Shown one piece after another: positions 3,199-31,855 of a stretch of 64,000 nt of DNA. The DNA comes from Xanthomonas arboricola pv. juglandis. GTDB taxonomy: Bacteria; Pseudomonadota; Gammaproteobacteria; Xanthomonadales; Xanthomonadaceae. Position 1 is the first letter of the stretch. Each line of letters starts with the position of its first letter. Under the pieces are notes generated by a model, which did no database searches, had not been told where the DNA came from, and was given only the letters and a program-made list of their open reading frames with translations. Where the stretch lies: NCBI RefSeq assembly GCF_001013475.1, contig NZ_JZEF01000002.1, forward strand, positions 1,157,655 to 1,221,654. Direction: 5' to 3'. The position numbers were made by a program, and so were the translations under genes.

Positions 3199-3269
3199 GG
3201 TAGGAGCGCGCTTGCGCGCGATGCGGCTTTATCGATAACGCCTCGTCGCGCCCGGGTGCGCTCCTACGG
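3199..3269. repeat. REP-like inverted repeat pair
   Basis: GGTAGGAGCGCGCTTGCGCG at the left faces CGCCCGGGTGCGCTCCTACG at the right, so the 71 bp can fold back on itself. It belongs to the 'TAGGAGCGC' family of extragenic palindromes that recurs in this window at 3335-3454 and in the 28.6-29.6 kb array. It lies just after the stop of the S9 peptidase. Confidence 0.75.
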
Positions 3270-3334
3270 CGAATGCGTCCGCCTCGCGTCCCGGGAAGAT
3301 TTGCTGCGCTTTCCACGCGATTGCCGCGATCACC

Positions 3335-3454
3335 GGTAGGAGCGCACCCGGGCGCGACGCAGCATGACCAGGACAGCCACATCGCGTAGCAGCGGGCCTG
3401 CCCGCGATGGGGCATCACCGGGAAAGACCCATCGCGCGCCAGCGCGCTCCTACG
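3335..3454. repeat. REP-like inverted repeat pair
   Basis: A second pair of the same family: GGTAGGAGCGCACCCGGGCG at the left and AGCGCGCTCCTACG at the right, with a smaller GCGGGCCTGCCCGC hairpin inside. Together with the first pair it fills most of the roughly 400-bp gap between the peptidase and ppc. No gene is seen there. Confidence 0.7.
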
Positions 3455-24855: not shown

Positions 24856-27087
24856 ATGATTCGCCTGCATCCGCTGGTGGTCGCGCTGTCGCTTGCGCTG
24901 CCTGCTCTTCCGTTGAGTGCCCACGCTGCCGACCTCGCCGCCAGTGGTGATGCCGCGCGCGAGGTTCACGACTTCGACCGGTTGCAGGTGACCGCCACGC
25001 GCACCCAGCGTGCCCTGGTCGATGTGCCGAGCACGGTGGATGTGATCGATCGCGAGCAACTGGACAACCAACTGGTGCGCGAGCTCAAGGATCTGTTCCG
25101 CTACACGCCCGGCGTGTCGGTGACCAGCAGCAGCGGCCGCTTCACCGGCGCCAACGGCATCCGCATCCGCGGGCTGGACGGCAACCGCGTGGCGATCCTG
25201 GTCGACAACGTCCCGGTGTCGGACACCTTCAGCTTCGGCAGCTACCTCAACGCCAACCGCAACTTCGTCGATCTGGAAACGCTCAAGCGCGTCGAAGTGG
25301 TGCGCGGGCCGGCCAGCTCGCTGTACGGTTCCGACGCGCTGGGCGGTGTGGTGGCCTTCGTCACCAAGGATCCATCCGATTACCTGAGTGCCGACAAGCA
25401 CAGCTATGTCGGCCTGAAGTTCGGCTACGAAGGCGACTGGAACGGCCTGTTCGCCGGTGCCACCGGCGCGTTCGGCGGCGAGCGCTGGAGCGGCATGGTG
25501 GCGGTCAGCCATCGCCAGGGCCAGGAAGCACAGAACCAGGGCGACAACCGCAGCCGCGATTTCACCCGTACTGCGGCCAACCCGCAGCGCATCGATGGCC
25601 GCAGCGTGCTGGCCAAGCTGGTGTACGCGCCCAGCGCGCAGCAGCGTTTCAAGCTCACCGTGGAAGGCAACGAAGACTACGGCAGCATCGAGGCATTGAC
25701 CGGCATCGACCCGCGTGTGACCACGCCATCGCAGCGCATCCTGTCGCAGGACGGACGCGACCATCAGACCCGCGCGCGCGTCTCGCTGCGCCACGAACTG
25801 GATGAGTTGGATTGGGCGCTGGCCGACGATCTGCAGTGGCAGCTGTATCGCCAGGACAGCGAGAGCCTGCAGCGCACCGACGAGCTGCGCGGCAACAACA
25901 CGCGCCGTCATAACGAACACAACTTCGATCAGCGCGTGTACGGCCTGCTGGTCAACGCACACAAAGCCATCGACACCGGCACGCTCAGCCACGACATCAC
26001 CTATGGGCTGGACGGCACCTGGACCGACACCCGCGCCAAGCGCGATGGCTACTCGGTCAATCTGGCCAATGGCGTGGTCACTAATCGCGTGGGTCAGGAC
26101 GTGTTCCCGGTGCGCGATTTCCCCAAGAGCGAGACCACCAAGCTCGGGCTGTATGCGCAGGACGAGATCCGCCTGTTCGATGGAAAGCTGTCGCTGACGC
26201 CGGGCGTGCGCGTGGATTACTTCCGGCTGTCGCCGCAGGTGGACGACATCTTCCGCGAAGACAATCCCGGCGTTGCCGCCGAGACCATCGATGAAACGCA
26301 GGTGTCTCCCAAGTTCGGTGCGGTGTGGCGGTTTTCGGACGCCTGGTCGGCGTATGCCAATTACGCGCACGGCTTCCGCGCGCCGCCATACAACGACGTC
26401 AATATCGGCTTCACCAATCTGCAGGCGCGCTACACCGCCATCGCCAATCCGGAACTGAAATCGGAGACCAGCCGTGGTGGCGAACTGGGGCTGCGTTTCA
26501 ATGATGCAGTCGGCTATCTGGGTGTCAGCGTGTACTACACCGACTACCGCAACTTCATCGAATCGTATGCGCCGGCCGGCTTCAATGCCGAAGGGCTGAT
26601 GCTGTTCCAGTCGCGCAACGTGGACGATGTGGTGATCAAGGGTGCCGAAGCGCGCGGGGGAATCGATCTGGGCGCCCTGGCCGGCTGGCAGGGTTGGTCG
26701 CTCAACAGCGCCGTGGCGTATGCGGAAGGCGACAATCTCACCGACGACACCCCGCTCAACTCGGTCGACCCGCTACGTGGCACGCTCGGCGTGGCCTTCG
26801 ACAGCGATGCCTGGGGCGCGGAACTGATCGGCACCTTCGTCGCGCGCAAGCGTCGCCCGCAGCTGGACAGCTATTACACCCCGGCCGGTTACGCCACGCT
26901 GGACCTGATGGGGCATTGGCAGTTCGCACCCGGTGCCAAGGTCACCGCCGGCATCTTCAATCTGGCCGACCGCCGCTATGTGGACTGGAATGCGCTGCCC
27001 AACGGTACGCTGGCCAGCAGCACGGTGCTCGATCGCTTCACCGGCGCCGGGCGCACCGCCTCGGTCAGCCTGGCGGTGAGCTGGTAG
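24856..27087 (+). CDS. TonB-dependent haem/haemoglobin receptor
   Basis: The 743-residue outer-membrane protein has a signal peptide (MIRLHPLVVALSLALPALPL...AHA), a TonB box-like stretch DRLQVTATR and a plug domain. The plug carries IRGLDGNRVAILVDNVPV and VEVVRGPASSLYGSDALGG. A 22-strand beta-barrel follows, ending in the aromatic-rich SVSLAVSW. In the barrel, GFRAPPYNDV and IANPELKSE correspond to the FRAP and NPNL boxes of haem receptors. I see no His between them, where HemR-type receptors carry one. It imports haem with TonB energy and is expected to be repressed by Fur with iron. Confidence 0.92.
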   Translation: MIRLHPLVVALSLALPALPLSAHAADLAASGDAAREVHDFDRLQVTATRTQRALVDVPSTVDVIDREQLDNQLVRELKDLFRYTPGVSVTSSSGRFTGANGIRIRGLDGNRVAILVDNVPVSDTFSFGSYLNANRNFVDLETLKRVEVVRGPASSLYGSDALGGVVAFVTKDPSDYLSADKHSYVGLKFGYEGDWNGLFAGATGAFGGERWSGMVAVSHRQGQEAQNQGDNRSRDFTRTAANPQRIDGRSVLAKLVYAPSAQQRFKLTVEGNEDYGSIEALTGIDPRVTTPSQRILSQDGRDHQTRARVSLRHELDELDWALADDLQWQLYRQDSESLQRTDELRGNNTRRHNEHNFDQRVYGLLVNAHKAIDTGTLSHDITYGLDGTWTDTRAKRDGYSVNLANGVVTNRVGQDVFPVRDFPKSETTKLGLYAQDEIRLFDGKLSLTPGVRVDYFRLSPQVDDIFREDNPGVAAETIDETQVSPKFGAVWRFSDAWSAYANYAHGFRAPPYNDVNIGFTNLQARYTAIANPELKSETSRGGELGLRFNDAVGYLGVSVYYTDYRNFIESYAPAGFNAEGLMLFQSRNVDDVVIKGAEARGGIDLGALAGWQGWSLNSAVAYAEGDNLTDDTPLNSVDPLRGTLGVAFDSDAWGAELIGTFVARKRRPQLDSYYTPAGYATLDLMGHWQFAPGAKVTAGIFNLADRRYVDWNALPNGTLASSTVLDRFTGAGRTASVSLAVSW

Positions 27088-27092
27088 CGGCC

Positions 27093-27725
27093 ATGCCCAT
27101 CGCCCGCCCGCTGCCGTCGTTGTCGCATGCACGTGCCACCCGCGCTGCGTTGCCGCGGCCGCAGCAGTTGGCGGCGTTGGGCACGGTGCTGTGCCTGTAT
27201 CGGCCCGCCTTGGGCAACGAGCTGGATGGCTGGCAGCACGCGGTGGATGCGGCGGCGTGCCGGCAGGTCGACAGCGATGGCGTGCGGGAGAGCATCTGGT
27301 TTTTCGATGCCGAGGGGCAGTGCTGCTGGCGGATCTGCCTGCTGCCTGACAGCGATTTCCTGATCTGGGATCGCCTGGTCTCGCGGCTGCCGCCGTTGCC
27401 GATGGAAACCCATGAGCTCGGCGTCGGCGAGCGGCTGTGGCGTCGTCTGGCCGGGCGCATGCGTGGGGAGGCGTGGCGCTTGAGCGCGCTGCGCCTGCAG
27501 GCCGCCACCACCCGCGAGCAGCCGTTTGTCGCCAGCCTGGCGACCGTGTCGGCGCTGGGCGCGGAAGTTGCCGCACGCCTGGCGCGCGAAGAGGGCATCG
27601 ACGGCCGCGTGGCGGTGGACGATTGCTGCTGCGCGCGCGCTGCCGCCTTGCGCACGGCCTCCGCCACATCCAGCAACAACAACCCATCCGACATGACCAC
27701 GTCGCTGATGCGCCTGCGCCGCTGA
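27093..27725 (+). CDS. Hemin-transport-associated protein (uncharacterised)
   Basis: The 210-residue protein starts 5 bp after the receptor stop and is therefore in its operon. It has GTVLCLYRPALGN, ESIWFFDAEGQCCWRICLLP and SDFLIWDRLVSRLP, which look like a shortened, diverged hemin-binding domain of the kind annotated as hemin transport protein in xanthomonads. A cluster of three Cys (DDCCCARAAA) lies near the C-terminus. No signal peptide is seen, so it is probably cytosolic and may handle incoming haem. The role is inferred from position. Confidence 0.65.
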   Translation: MPIARPLPSLSHARATRAALPRPQQLAALGTVLCLYRPALGNELDGWQHAVDAAACRQVDSDGVRESIWFFDAEGQCCWRICLLPDSDFLIWDRLVSRLPPLPMETHELGVGERLWRRLAGRMRGEAWRLSALRLQAATTREQPFVASLATVSALGAEVAARLAREEGIDGRVAVDDCCCARAAALRTASATSSNNNPSDMTTSLMRLRR

Positions 27726-27752
27726 CGTCTCCAACCACTCCCGAGAGTTCCG

Positions 27753-28676
27753 ATGAGCCGAACGTTTTCTCGTTGTATCGCACTGACGCTGAGCCTGTTG
27801 CCGTTGATTGCCGCCGCCGACGCCCAGCGCGACCGCCAGAGCATCCTGGCGATGCAGGGCGAATACGCGGTGGACTTTGCCTTCGACGAGACGGTGTTGC
27901 TCAAGCCCGGTTACGAGCGTGCATCGGCCATGCGCAGCGGCGCCAGCGAAGTGGTGATCGTGGTGGAGGATTCACCGCGCAAGCTGGTGCTGCAGCATCT
28001 GCTGGTCGACGAGAAGAGCAAGCACGTGACCAAGCATTGGCGGCAGGACTGGATCTACGAGGCGCCGCAGCGTTTCGAATTCAGCGCCGATCAGACCTGG
28101 ACGGTGCACGCGCTGCCGCCGGCAGTCACCACCGGCGCCTGGACCCAGTGCGTCTACGAGGTCAGCGACGCGCCACGCTATTGCGGCACCGGGCGCTGGG
28201 ACTATGCCGACGGCCATCCCACCTGGACCAGCGACCTGAGCTGGCGCCCGTTGCCGCGCCGCGAGTACACCAAGCGCAGCGACTACAACGCGCTCGCGGT
28301 GATCAATCGCCACACGCTCACGCCCAACGGCTGGACCCACGAACAGTTCAACACCAAGGTGCTGCGCAAGCCCGACGGCAGCCAGGAAGCGATCGCGCGC
28401 GAGTTCGGCTTCAACGATTACCGCAAGACCACCGAGGTCGACTTCGCCCCGGCCTATGCGTACTGGAAGGGCACCCAAGGCTACTGGGCCAAGGTGCGCA
28501 CGCGCTGGGCCAGGTTCCTCGATACGCCACCCGGCCTGCATCTGAAGACCAAGCCGGACGGCATGGCGATGATCATGCCGATGTTCCAGCAGGCCGAGGC
28601 GGTGCAGAACGGCAAGCGGGTCCAGGATGCGCAGCTGGACGCGGTGTTCGCGCAGTGGGTCGAACCGGCGAACTAG
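27753..28676 (+). CDS. DUF6607-like secreted protein
   Basis: The 307-residue protein has a cleavable signal peptide (MSRTFSRCIALTLSLLPLIAAADA). The mature part is rich in Trp and Tyr, with HWRQDWIYEAPQRFEFSAD, WTQCVYEVSDAPRYCGTG (two Cys that could pair) and WRPLPRREYTKRSDYNA. I place it in DUF6607 from resemblance; function unknown. It lies 27 bp after the hemin-associated gene, so it is probably the last cistron of the Fur-controlled haem operon and acts in the periplasm. Its last 42 codons are the template of the downstream 260-bp tandem array. Confidence 0.75.
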   Translation: MSRTFSRCIALTLSLLPLIAAADAQRDRQSILAMQGEYAVDFAFDETVLLKPGYERASAMRSGASEVVIVVEDSPRKLVLQHLLVDEKSKHVTKHWRQDWIYEAPQRFEFSADQTWTVHALPPAVTTGAWTQCVYEVSDAPRYCGTGRWDYADGHPTWTSDLSWRPLPRREYTKRSDYNALAVINRHTLTPNGWTHEQFNTKVLRKPDGSQEAIAREFGFNDYRKTTEVDFAPAYAYWKGTQGYWAKVRTRWARFLDTPPGLHLKTKPDGMAMIMPMFQQAEAVQNGKRVQDAQLDAVFAQWVEPAN

Positions 28677-29574
28677 CCACCCGCATGCCGTAGGAGCGCA
28701 CCAGGGCGCGACGTGGCATTCCCGAAAACGCCCATCGCGCCGCGGGACGCTCCTGCGAGGTCGCGCCCTGGTGCGCTCCTACGAGCGAGACGGCTGGAAG
28801 GGCGCCCAGCAAACCGGACGGCATGGCGATGATCATGCCGATGTTCCAGCAGGCCGAGGCGGTGCAGAACGGCAAGCGGGTCAAGGACGCGCAGCTGGAC
28901 GCGGTGTTCGCGCAGTGGGTCGAACCGGCGAACTAGGCATCCGCATGCGGTAGGAGCGCACCGGGGCGCGACGTGGCATTCCCGAAAACGCCCATCCCGC
29001 TGCGGGACGCTCCTGCGAGGTCGCGCCCTGGTGCGCTCCTACGAGCGAGACGGCTGGAAGGGCGCCCAGCAAACCGGACGGCATGGCGATGATCATGCCG
29101 ATGTTCCAGCAGGCCGAGGCGGTGCAGAACGGCAAGCGGGTCAAGGACGCGCAGCTGGACGCGGTGTTCGCGCAGTGGGTCGAACCGGCGAACTAGGCAT
29201 CCGCATGCGGTAGGAGCGCACCGGGGCGCGACGTGGCATTCCCGAAAACGCCCATCCCGCTGCGGGACGCTCCTGCGAGGTCGCGCCCTGGTGCGCTCCT
29301 ACGAGCGAGACGGCTGGAAGGGCGCCCAGCAAACCGGACGGCATGGCGATGATCATGCCGATGTTCCAGCAGGCCGAGGCGGTGCAGAGCGGCAAGCGGA
29401 TCAAGGACGCGCAGCTGGACGCGGTGTTCGCGCAGTGGGTCGAACCGGCGAACTAGGCATCCGCATGCGGTAGGAGCGCACCGGGGCGCGACGTGGCATT
29501 CCCGAAAACGCCCATCCCGCTGCGGGACGCTCCTGCGAGGTCGCGCCCTGGTGCGCTCCTACGAGCGAGACGGC
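28551..29574 (+). repeat. Tandem array of four 260-bp units built from a gene 3' end plus REP
   Basis: Units begin at 28551, 28811, 29071 and 29331, a constant period of 260 bp; the last is 244 bp. Each carries the final 42 codons of the DUF6607-like gene, starting A(A/G)(A/G)CCGGACGGCATGGCG and ending GGCGAACTAG, followed by a 'TAGGAGCGCACC...GGTGCGCTCCTACGAG' REP hairpin. Unit 1 is the real gene end. Units 2 and 3 are almost identical to each other, and unit 4 has a few changes (CAGAGCGGCAAGCGGATC). Since 260 is not a multiple of 3, the array is not an extension of the protein. The extra units lack a signal peptide and a convincing ribosome site. Confidence 0.93.
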
Positions 29575-29594
29575 AGTTAGCCGTTCAAGAGCCG

Positions 29595-29948
29595 TTATTC
29601 CTTGAACATCAGGAATGCCGCGACCAGGATCAAGCCGAATGCGGCCCAATGATTCCACTTCAACGACTGGCCCAGGTAGAAGGTCGAGAAGCCGGCGAAC
29701 ACCAGCAGCGTGATCACTTCCTGCATGCCCTTGAGCTGTGGCGCCGAGTACACCGCGCTGCCCAGGCGGTTACCCGGTACCTGCAGGCAGTATTCGAAGA
29801 ACGCGATGCCCCAGCTGACCAGGATCGCGATCATCAGCGGCGTGCTCTTGTACTTCAGATGCCCGTACCAGGCAAAAGTCATGAACACGTTGCTGGCGAT
29901 CAGCAACAGCACCGGATACAGATAGGCAGTGAAGGGGGCGGTAGGCAT
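29595..29948 (-). CDS. DMT-family (DUF486) small membrane protein
   Basis: The 117-residue protein is almost entirely four hydrophobic helices, with FAWYGHLK after the first, AILVSWGIAFFEYCLQVPGNR in the middle, and QVITLLVFAGFSTFYLG plus WNHWAAFGLILVAAFLMF at the end. This is the DUF486 family of the drug/metabolite transporter superfamily. The substrate is unknown. The ATG at 29948 is used because residues before it are not conserved-looking. The gene ends 20 bp from the tandem array and converges on it. Confidence 0.88.
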   Translation of the reverse strand: MPTAPFTAYLYPVLLLIASNVFMTFAWYGHLKYKSTPLMIAILVSWGIAFFEYCLQVPGNRLGSAVYSAPQLKGMQEVITLLVFAGFSTFYLGQSLKWNHWAAFGLILVAAFLMFKE

Positions 29949-30072
29949 GACGGCAGACGGCAGCAGAGGGGCCGGCAGCATAAGCCAGCCCCGTTAAGCG
30001 CACGCGACCGTGCCGATGAGCCCGGCACGCGGGCTCAGGGCGTTGGTGGCCGGCGCAACACGTTCATCTGCA

Positions 30073-30101
30073 GCGTGGCCAGGCAAAACGCCTGGCCACG
30101 C
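30073..30101. repeat. Perfect inverted repeat between two minus-strand genes
   Basis: GCGTGGCCAGG and CCTGGCCACGC form an 11-bp stem (12 with the next C/G pair) around CAAAACG. It could terminate transcription of the sulfonate operon on the minus strand, but no run of T follows. Confidence 0.5.
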
Positions 30102-30134
30102 ATCGCTGCGCCAGTGGCTCCCGCGATCACCCCC

Positions 30135-31019
30135 TTAGCGCTGCATGCCCCAGCGGCGCACGGTCAGCCGCTCGATGGCCTGGAACACCACGCCCTCCAC
30201 CAGCAGGCCCAGCACGATCACCATCGCCAGGCCGGCGAACACCCGGTCGGTATACAGCTCGTTGCGGTTCTGGAAGATGTACCAGCCCAGGCCGCCCTGG
30301 CCGGAGGTGGCGCCGAACACCAGCTCGGCGGCGATCAGGGTGCGCCAGGCGAAGGCCCAGCCGATCTTCAGCCCGGACAGGATCGCCGGCAGCGCGGCGG
30401 GAATCAGCAGCTGCGCCACGTAGCGCGGCCCACGCAACCCGTAATTGCGCCCGGCCATGCGCAGCGTTTCCGGCACGGCCTGGAAACCGGCGTAGGTGGT
30501 CAGCGCCAGCGGCCACAGCACCGAATGCACCAGCACGAACACCAGGCTGCCGGTGCCCAGGCCGAACCACAGCAAGGCCAGCGGCAGCAGCGCGATCGCC
30601 GGCAGCGGATTGAACATGGCGGTCAGCGTGCCGAGCACGTCGCGGCCCCAGCGCGTGGAAGCGGCCAGCGCGGTCAGCACGAAGGCCAGCACCACGCCGA
30701 GCGCATAGCCCTGCGCCAGCACGCGCAGCGAAGCGCCCACGCGGCGCAGCAGCTCGCCGGACAGCAGCCCGTCGTAGAACGCGCGTGCGGTCTGCAGCGC
30801 GCTGGGCAGCATCAGATCGTCGCCGACCACGCGTGCGGCGATCTCCCACACTGCGACCAGCATCACCAGCACCAGCGCCTTGCGTAGCCACGGCGGTGCC
30901 TGCCAGCGCGTTGGCGCGGCGGCTGCAACCAATGCCGGGTCCAGCGGCTGCAGGGTGACTTCGTACTCGGCCCGTACCGGTGGCAGTGGCGGCAGCGCGG
31001 TGGCGGTACTGCGGCTCAT
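30135..31019 (-). CDS. Taurine/aliphatic sulfonate ABC transporter permease
   Basis: This 294-residue inner-membrane protein has about six helices after a 45-residue cytosolic N-terminus. The permease EAA-loop region is KIGWAFAWRTLIAAELVFGATSGQGGLG, typical of the SsuC/TauC/NrtB group. Its start overlaps the ATPase stop by 4 bp, so it is the last gene of the four-gene operon with a dioxygenase, a binding protein and an ATPase. With them it should import an organosulfonate for use as a sulfur source. Confidence 0.88.
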   Translation of the reverse strand: MSRSTATALPPLPPVRAEYEVTLQPLDPALVAAAAPTRWQAPPWLRKALVLVMLVAVWEIAARVVGDDLMLPSALQTARAFYDGLLSGELLRRVGASLRVLAQGYALGVVLAFVLTALAASTRWGRDVLGTLTAMFNPLPAIALLPLALLWFGLGTGSLVFVLVHSVLWPLALTTYAGFQAVPETLRMAGRNYGLRGPRYVAQLLIPAALPAILSGLKIGWAFAWRTLIAAELVFGATSGQGGLGWYIFQNRNELYTDRVFAGLAMVIVLGLLVEGVVFQAIERLTVRRWGMQR

Positions 31020-31855
31020 GGCAGCGCCTCGCGTTGGCGCTCGGCCGGGCGACGCAGCGGCGCCACCTTGGCGTCTTCCAGGGCATCGTCGGGCAGGTCG
31101 AACAGCAGCCGATGGATGCGCTGCGCCGTCTGCTGGAATGCCACGCTACCGGCGCTGTGCGGGCCGAACGCATGCGCGTTGAGCTCGGCGCGCACCTGGC
31201 CCGGATGCGGCGACAACAGCAGCACGCGATTGCCGACCACCAACGCCTCCTCGATCGAATGGGTGACGAACAACAAGGTGAAGCGCGATTGCTCCCACAG
31301 CTCCAGCACCTGCTCCTGCATGCGCGAACGCGTCAACGCATCGAGTGCGGCGAACGGCTCGTCCATCAGCAGTACGCGCGGGCGCATCGCCAATGCGCGC
31401 GCAATCGCCACGCGTTGTTTCATGCCGCCGGACAAGGTATGCGGGTAGGCCTGGGCAAACGCGCTCAGCCCGACCTGCGCCAGGCTGTCGTCGGCACGTT
31501 CGCGCGCCTCGGCACGCGACAGCTTGCGGGCTGCGCGCAGGCCGAACACCACGTTCTCGCGCACTGTCTTCCAGGGCGCCAGCTGGTCAAATTCCTGGAA
31601 GACGACCACCCGGTCCGGCCCCGGCCCGGTGACCGCGTTGCCATCCAGACGGATCTGCCCCTCGCGCGGGGTGACGAAGCCGGCCACCGCCTTGAGCAGG
31701 GTGGATTTGCCGCAACCCGAGGGCCCCAGCAGCACGAAGCGGTCGGCTTCATGCACATCGAAACGCACGCGATGGGTGGCGCGCACCACGCGTTGCGCCG
31801 AGGCGTATTCCAGGCTGACGTGATCGACCTGCAGCAATGGTGTGGACGGACTCAT
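31016..31855 (-). CDS. Taurine/aliphatic sulfonate ABC transporter ATPase
   Basis: The 279-residue ATPase has Walker A GPSGCGKST (about residues 44-52), Q-loop VVFQEFDQLAPW, the signature LSGGMKQRVAIARAL, Walker B VLLMDEPFAALD and the switch His in LLFVTHSIEEA. This pattern is that of TauB/SsuB-type importers. It lies 3 bp after the binding-protein gene and overlaps the permease gene. The C-terminal 60 residues are longer than usual and carry no known domain. Confidence 0.9.
   Translation of the reverse strand: MSPSTPLLQVDHVSLEYASAQRVVRATHRVRFDVHEADRFVLLGPSGCGKSTLLKAVAGFVTPREGQIRLDGNAVTGPGPDRVVVFQEFDQLAPWKTVRENVVFGLRAARKLSRAEARERADDSLAQVGLSAFAQAYPHTLSGGMKQRVAIARALAMRPRVLLMDEPFAALDALTRSRMQEQVLELWEQSRFTLLFVTHSIEEALVVGNRVLLLSPHPGQVRAELNAHAFGPHSAGSVAFQQTAQRIHRLLFDLPDDALEDAKVAPLRRPAERQREALP

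Follow-up and report, generated by a model that had tools for sequence, protein, structure and literature searches.

How did the 3′ end of an ordinary gene come to be repeated behind itself, each copy followed by the same hairpin? The question is raised by a DUF6607 gene (27753..28676, plus strand) within the 64,000-nucleotide stretch of DNA analysed here (G000:C2:1157655-1221654), hereafter the window. The gene is an open reading frame for a 307-amino acid protein (PF20311, E 3.8e-73), whose closest named relatives are from X. arboricola strains (98% identity, records from the window's own genome having possibly been left out of the comparison); no paper on DUF6607 was found among open-licence PMC papers. 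Upstream lies a gene for a haem-type TonB receptor (TIGR01785 and TIGR01786, both above cut-off), a finding that fits the “haem operon” label of the original prediction, the operon being putative. On the other side, the DUF486/DMT_6 gene (PF04342; 29595..29981, minus strand) converges on the DUF6607 gene; its tail is captured in other species.

Anatomy of the array

The tandem array spans positions 28550-29574 and comprises 3.94 copies (3.9 according to TRF) of a 260-bp period, with 98% matches, no indels and a score of 1973. Successive copies start 260, 260 and 260 nt apart, confirming that the four-unit head-to-tail array is real. Each unit consists of the last 41 codons and TAG stop of the DUF6607 gene, followed by 13 nt, a 93-nt REPIN made up of two GTAG REPs in inverted order, another 11 nt and a 16-nt filler that is missing from unit 4. 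The tail and stop that had been predicted for each unit are present, the count being 41 sense codons plus TAG rather than 42 codons, and the one REP hairpin foreseen per unit corresponds to the REPIN. Unit 1 (28550..28809, plus strand) is the gene's own tail, with the stop at 28674-28676, the REPIN at 28690-28782 and the filler at 28794-28809; since this unit retains its own stop, the gene stays intact. The additional, presumably silent tail copies follow on the same strand as unit 2 (28810..29069; stop 28934-28936, REPIN 28950-29042, filler 29054-29069), unit 3 (29070..29329; stop 29194-29196, REPIN 29210-29302, filler 29314-29329) and unit 4 (29330..29574; stop 29454-29456, REPIN 29470-29562). 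At the limits given, every REPIN begins with GTAG and ends with CTAC. All four lie outside genes, each 13 nt past a stop, between the two convergent genes. The copies contain in-frame ATG codons, with no start signal evident by eye.

The near-identity noted earlier between units 2 and 3 extends to all 260 nt, the two having been homogenised. There are 2 differences in 245 sites between units 3 and 4, and 9 in 260 between units 1 and 2. At one codon the gene's own tail has CAG (Gln) where all seven aligned relatives have AAG (Lys), and the array copies retain AAG. The nine differences and the conserved AAG argue against a very recent first duplication; units 2-4 appear to have spread recently.

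Every unit carries the REP GTAGGAGCGCACC.GGGCGCGA, an imperfect palindrome with a GTAG head. The inverted REP arms are 30 nt long and 93% complementary in unit 1, 29 nt and 90% in units 2-4. Folding of the unit 1 REPIN is predicted to yield -81.8 kcal/mol (z -9.0 relative to shuffles; z -5.65 for unit 2). A matching REP, Xaxo (GTAGGAGCGCACC[t/c]GGGCGCGAC), is listed for X. axonopodis pv. citri in the excerpted text of Nunvar et al. 2010 (PMC2817692); at its t or c position, A or G is found in the window units. Allowing up to three mismatches, the window's own genome (G000) holds 247 REP matches (122 + 125), as against a single match for the reversed control. Elsewhere in the window, positions 3200-3453 contain four REP words in alternating orientation, the order of which suggests two more REPINs of the same type.

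A sequence within the gene itself (28463..28477, plus strand), 72 nt ahead of the repeated part, agrees with the filler, CTGGAAGGGCGCCCAG, at 14 of 15 positions; the junction does resemble an in-gene sequence some 70 bp upstream, as originally predicted. Matches this good to 27753-28549 (both strands) were obtained with 5 of 5000 shuffled fillers and with 9 of 2695 other 16-mers from the window. In a wider test (26001-31500) the real filler scored 12.5, the top of 30 shuffles reaching 12. On these counts the likeness is probably real, if not overwhelming, and the filler was probably copied from the gene, with 28463..28477 as the possible template. The likeness looks more like the trace of a copied filler than like a pair of recombining repeats.

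The same site in other genomes

REP-like sequence is common at this site: with loosened patterns, it was found behind the DUF6607 gene in 22 of the 28 Xanthomonas loci inspected (a count that leaves out L040, where the contig ends in the gene). It begins 15-26 nt past the matched coding stretch, and in 3 of the 22 loci the first REP alone was found. Extra copies of a gene tail are rarer, occurring in 5 of 35 genus genomes. The window's genome has three extra DUF6607 tails and X. cucurbitae (G023) four; X. arboricola NL_P126 (G013), X. dyei (G044) and Xanthomonas sp. Leaf148 (G049) each have one detected extra tail of the DUF486 gene. In X. cucurbitae (L049, 3311-4415) the unit of 226 bp, present in 4.9 copies, combines the DUF6607 tail and a REPIN with a different filler. 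NL_P126 (L037) has 2.7 copies of a 229-bp unit, made of about 36 nt resembling the DUF6607 gene end, then the REPIN, then part of the DUF486 tail. X. dyei (L055) has two REPINs 230 bp apart and Leaf148 (L056) three, 230 and 240 bp apart (240 bp x 2.9). In both, the unit is made of a REPIN, the DUF486 tail and a common filler of about 30 nt, and this shared filler marks the two as one event. Array copy number varies between species. In the NL_P126 assembly, single N bases lie inside REPIN arrays or at their junctions (in the L037 array region and at L213:5536-6187), which makes its copy numbers uncertain.

Three further loci (L020, L021 and L053) have, as judged by eye, two REPINs flanking a worn DUF486-like stretch. 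Taken together, the sequences point to three or more independent captures at this locus, four or five being the probable number. A caveat concerns the window and X. cucurbitae arrays, which start no more than about 8 nt apart within the DUF6607 gene and might still descend from an old shared array whose fillers diverged later.

The other fillers were searched for a source as well. None was found for that of X. cucurbitae (17 nt, up to two mismatches, in G000, G023 and G018): outside its own array there were two-mismatch matches only, about as many as with the control. The filler common to Leaf148 and X. dyei (24 nt, up to three mismatches; the search covered G000, G023, G013 and G044) had no source in the first three of these genomes, and in G044 it matched its own array only. 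As for whether the fillers of the window and of X. cucurbitae are related by descent, their alignment is no better than that of shuffles, 1266 of 2000 of which reach the same score.

The X. cucurbitae units fall into haplotypes, units 1 and 5 forming one and units 2 and 4 another, with unit 3 in between. Variation is concentrated in the tail codons, 12 of 40 being variable (seven silently, five with an amino acid change), whereas past the stop only 2 sites in 79 vary. The pattern resembles one in which variants arose in expressed genes and were then shuffled through the array. Both features would suit a REPIN-made cassette system in which silent tail copies serve as a donor pool from which the end of the expressed gene is rewritten; we consider this role a long shot.

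Two other observations concern the site. In Xanthomonas sp. LMG 31884 (L038) and X. hortorum (L039) a REP of another subtype, GTAGGAGCGCGCTGGCGCGCGA, lies behind the DUF6607 gene, as though conversion or replacement had exchanged one REPIN for another. In Stenotrophomonas sp. BIGb0135 (L110:3435-4326), a 196 bp x 4.6 array of a different GTAG-type repeat is found close behind the orthologous gene.

REPIN arrays elsewhere and the origin of the array

The window's own genome contains at least six further REPIN arrays. TRF detected arrays in 5 of 20 stretches (L143, L144, L145, L151 and L152) that had been chosen for the presence of a listed REP or a RAYT-like gene. The largest (L144:1152-2218, on G000:C1) has 7.5 copies of 143 bp with 97% matches, and both its limits coincide with REPIN ends. 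Among twenty 20-kb stretches of the same genome, many selected for known REPs, arrays were present in four (L229, L235, L236 and L237), three of which correspond to L143-L145 and one of which is new; no captured gene tail was recognised in these four, an ORF overlap being seen at L236. In 400 kb of NL_P126, examined as 20 adjoining stretches, 7 stretches have REP-bearing tandem arrays, and 12 REP loci were counted there. In one of the arrays (L209:5299-5761, on G013:C20), the order of stop, REPIN and small filler is that of the window, the duplicated tail (some 36 codons plus the stop) belonging to a LysR-type gene. Arrays at L213, L223, L225, L226 and L236 overlap ORFs; our guess is that these overlaps are mostly spurious, and the captured gene tails in the sampled stretches are accordingly a lower bound.

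One edge of an array usually lies near a REPIN end (within about 15 nt) and the other in a gene or spacer. In the window, the likeness between units 3 and 4 ends 12 nt past the REPIN; it ends 2 nt past the REPIN in X. cucurbitae and about 13 nt past it at L209. The Leaf148 array starts about 2 nt ahead of its first REPIN, and in L144 and L145 neither limit is more than about 2 nt from a REPIN end. L152 extends from 44 nt ahead of the first listed REP to about 12 nt past the last. The pinned edge is not universal, the L152 start and that of the NL_P126 unit, about 36 nt before the REPIN, being exceptions.

Arrays with other units at the same REPIN in other species, REPIN arrays elsewhere in these genomes and edges often close to REPIN ends all point to the REPIN as the focus of the events. 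We therefore favour, with a probability of roughly two in three, the reading that this is a tandem REPIN array whose unit includes the 3′ end of the neighbouring gene, and that the first duplication began at the REPIN. The long hairpin of the REPIN would stall replication, or a RAYT (REP-associated tyrosine transposase) would nick beside it. The free 3′ end just past the REPIN would re-prime upstream within the gene, copy a few gene bases (now the filler) and then jump to position 28550. Ordinary unequal recombination between two existing units could then have produced four and homogenised units 2-4. The extra copies, presumably silent, add three REPIN hairpins between the convergent genes and are most likely a near-neutral by-product.

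In a second scenario the transposase does the whole work, cutting at the REPs to release a circle of gene tail and REPIN, from which rolling-circle copying inserts the array at once. Such a model was proposed for BIMEs by Nunvar et al. (PMC2817692), who describe four cases in which the 3′ end of a rayt gene enters a BIME. The genome has a cognate RAYT gene (G000:C3:364972-365427) that matches NF047646 over its full length (1-146 of 146, E 7.9e-39) and whose product matches TnpArep (PDB 4er8, E 1.4e-5). The REPs of the array occur on both sides of it (364633-364843 and 365493-366017, within G000:C3:364633-366017). Two more RAYT-like genes are found in this genome, at C3:349660-350061 (67% identity to the cognate one) and C6:257856-258251 (37%). 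Array carriers are richer in the cognate RAYT, which is present in 4 of 5 (5 of 5 if a broken one is included) compared with 9 of 25 other genomes (Fisher p 0.094 or 0.014), and in REPs, with a median of 215 per genome as against 96 (Mann-Whitney p 0.0027, 5 vs 25); the window array itself accounts for eight of those in G000. These counts refer to 30 usable genomes, after G022, G045 and G024 (no DUF6607), G011 (a fragment) and G020 (contig ending in the gene) had been dropped, and genomes in which a degraded DUF486-like piece separates two REPINs (G014, G002 and also L053) were scored as non-carriers. According to another study (PMC3686654), the abundance of REPs, where high, seemed to hinge on the cognate RAYT. 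The association seen here is suggestive only, because the genomes are not independent: the species are related and two carriers, X. dyei and Leaf148, share one event. The window array ends on the right at C|A, and C|T marks the start of the likely filler template, a fit, noticed post hoc, to the CT or CA at which RAYTs of other bacteria are described to cut next to a REP (PMC8266576, in part). Against the scenario, the far edge lies inside the gene, 140 nt from the REPIN, where a REP-guided cut is not expected, and the fillers are unlike the products of clean strand transfer. We regard it as possible, if rather unlikely.

The original prediction hinted that recombination between short similar sequences lay behind the amplification. 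In this form, illegitimate recombination or slippage would have created the array with the REPIN as a passenger. The likeness between junction and gene, on which the idea was built, holds, and the word GACGGCA indeed occurs in the gene, at the left edge of the array, and again after the final REPIN. A slip at GACGGCA, however, should have joined the units without any filler, and the junction still contains both words, except that the right one lacks its last letter. Nor does the idea explain why arrays with differing units arose repeatedly at one REPIN site, or why REPIN arrays exist elsewhere; with the REPIN as the focus, plain recombination becomes improbable.

Repeated stops and hairpins could alter mRNA ends, and the array might have been selected as a device that protects or terminates the haem-operon mRNA and insulates it from the convergent gene. 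The hairpins are strong on both strands, and the site, between convergent genes, has REP-like sequence in most of the loci inspected. Yet no intrinsic terminator, with its U-tract, was found in 27600-30200, and the small minority of genus genomes with extra tail copies also speaks against selection, leaving the idea highly doubtful; a search of 27000-30500 gave no match to Rfam RNA families. Finally, that an assembly artefact inflated the copy number is scarcely credible: the identity of units 2 and 3 over 260 nt could make the number wrong, but there are three distinguishable unit types in the window array and five in that of X. cucurbitae, and arrays recur at the same site in other assemblies.

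Significance and relation to known repeat systems

The LysR, DUF486 and DUF6607 cases mean that capture of gene tails is not confined to rayt genes. A single locus at which the ends of either or both neighbours were captured several times amounts to a natural series on how REPIN arrays begin, one that informs where their edges lie and what the fillers are. In practical terms, partial gene copies arising from such an array can mislead annotation, and the array is possibly a typing locus, if its copy number varies between strains. Among open-licence PMC papers we found no description of this array, nor, in that literature, any of recurrent capture of ordinary gene ends at one site.

A 2013 survey of clusters of GTAG-tagged REPs reportedly came from the Di Nocera group. 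In the text excerpted from it, clusters have flanking segments of variable length, and Xanthomonas has no occurrence in its main text (PMC3733652). Tandem REPINs with flanking DNA, usually with short non-repeated separators, were described in P. fluorescens SBW25 by Bertels and Rainey 2011 (PMC3116915). Such tandem clusters, clusters with variable flanks and rayt-tail BIMEs having been described before, the window array is of a known kind. The picture drawn by the portions of this literature cited here is one of REPs and REPINs that are mostly intergenic, the captured genes being rayt tails, and that precedent makes the 41 codons of the unit compatible with a BIME-like array. Like the SBW25 clusters (PMC3116915, excerpts), the window array has near-identical REPINs placed head to tail with their flanks and short separators; the excerpts mention neither a unit with a coding tail, as found here, nor recurrent origin at one locus across species. 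As in the rayt-tail BIMEs of Nunvar et al. (PMC2817692, excerpts), a gene 3′ end and the DNA up to the REP have joined the repeat, whereas the genes captured here are DUF6607, DUF486 and LysR.
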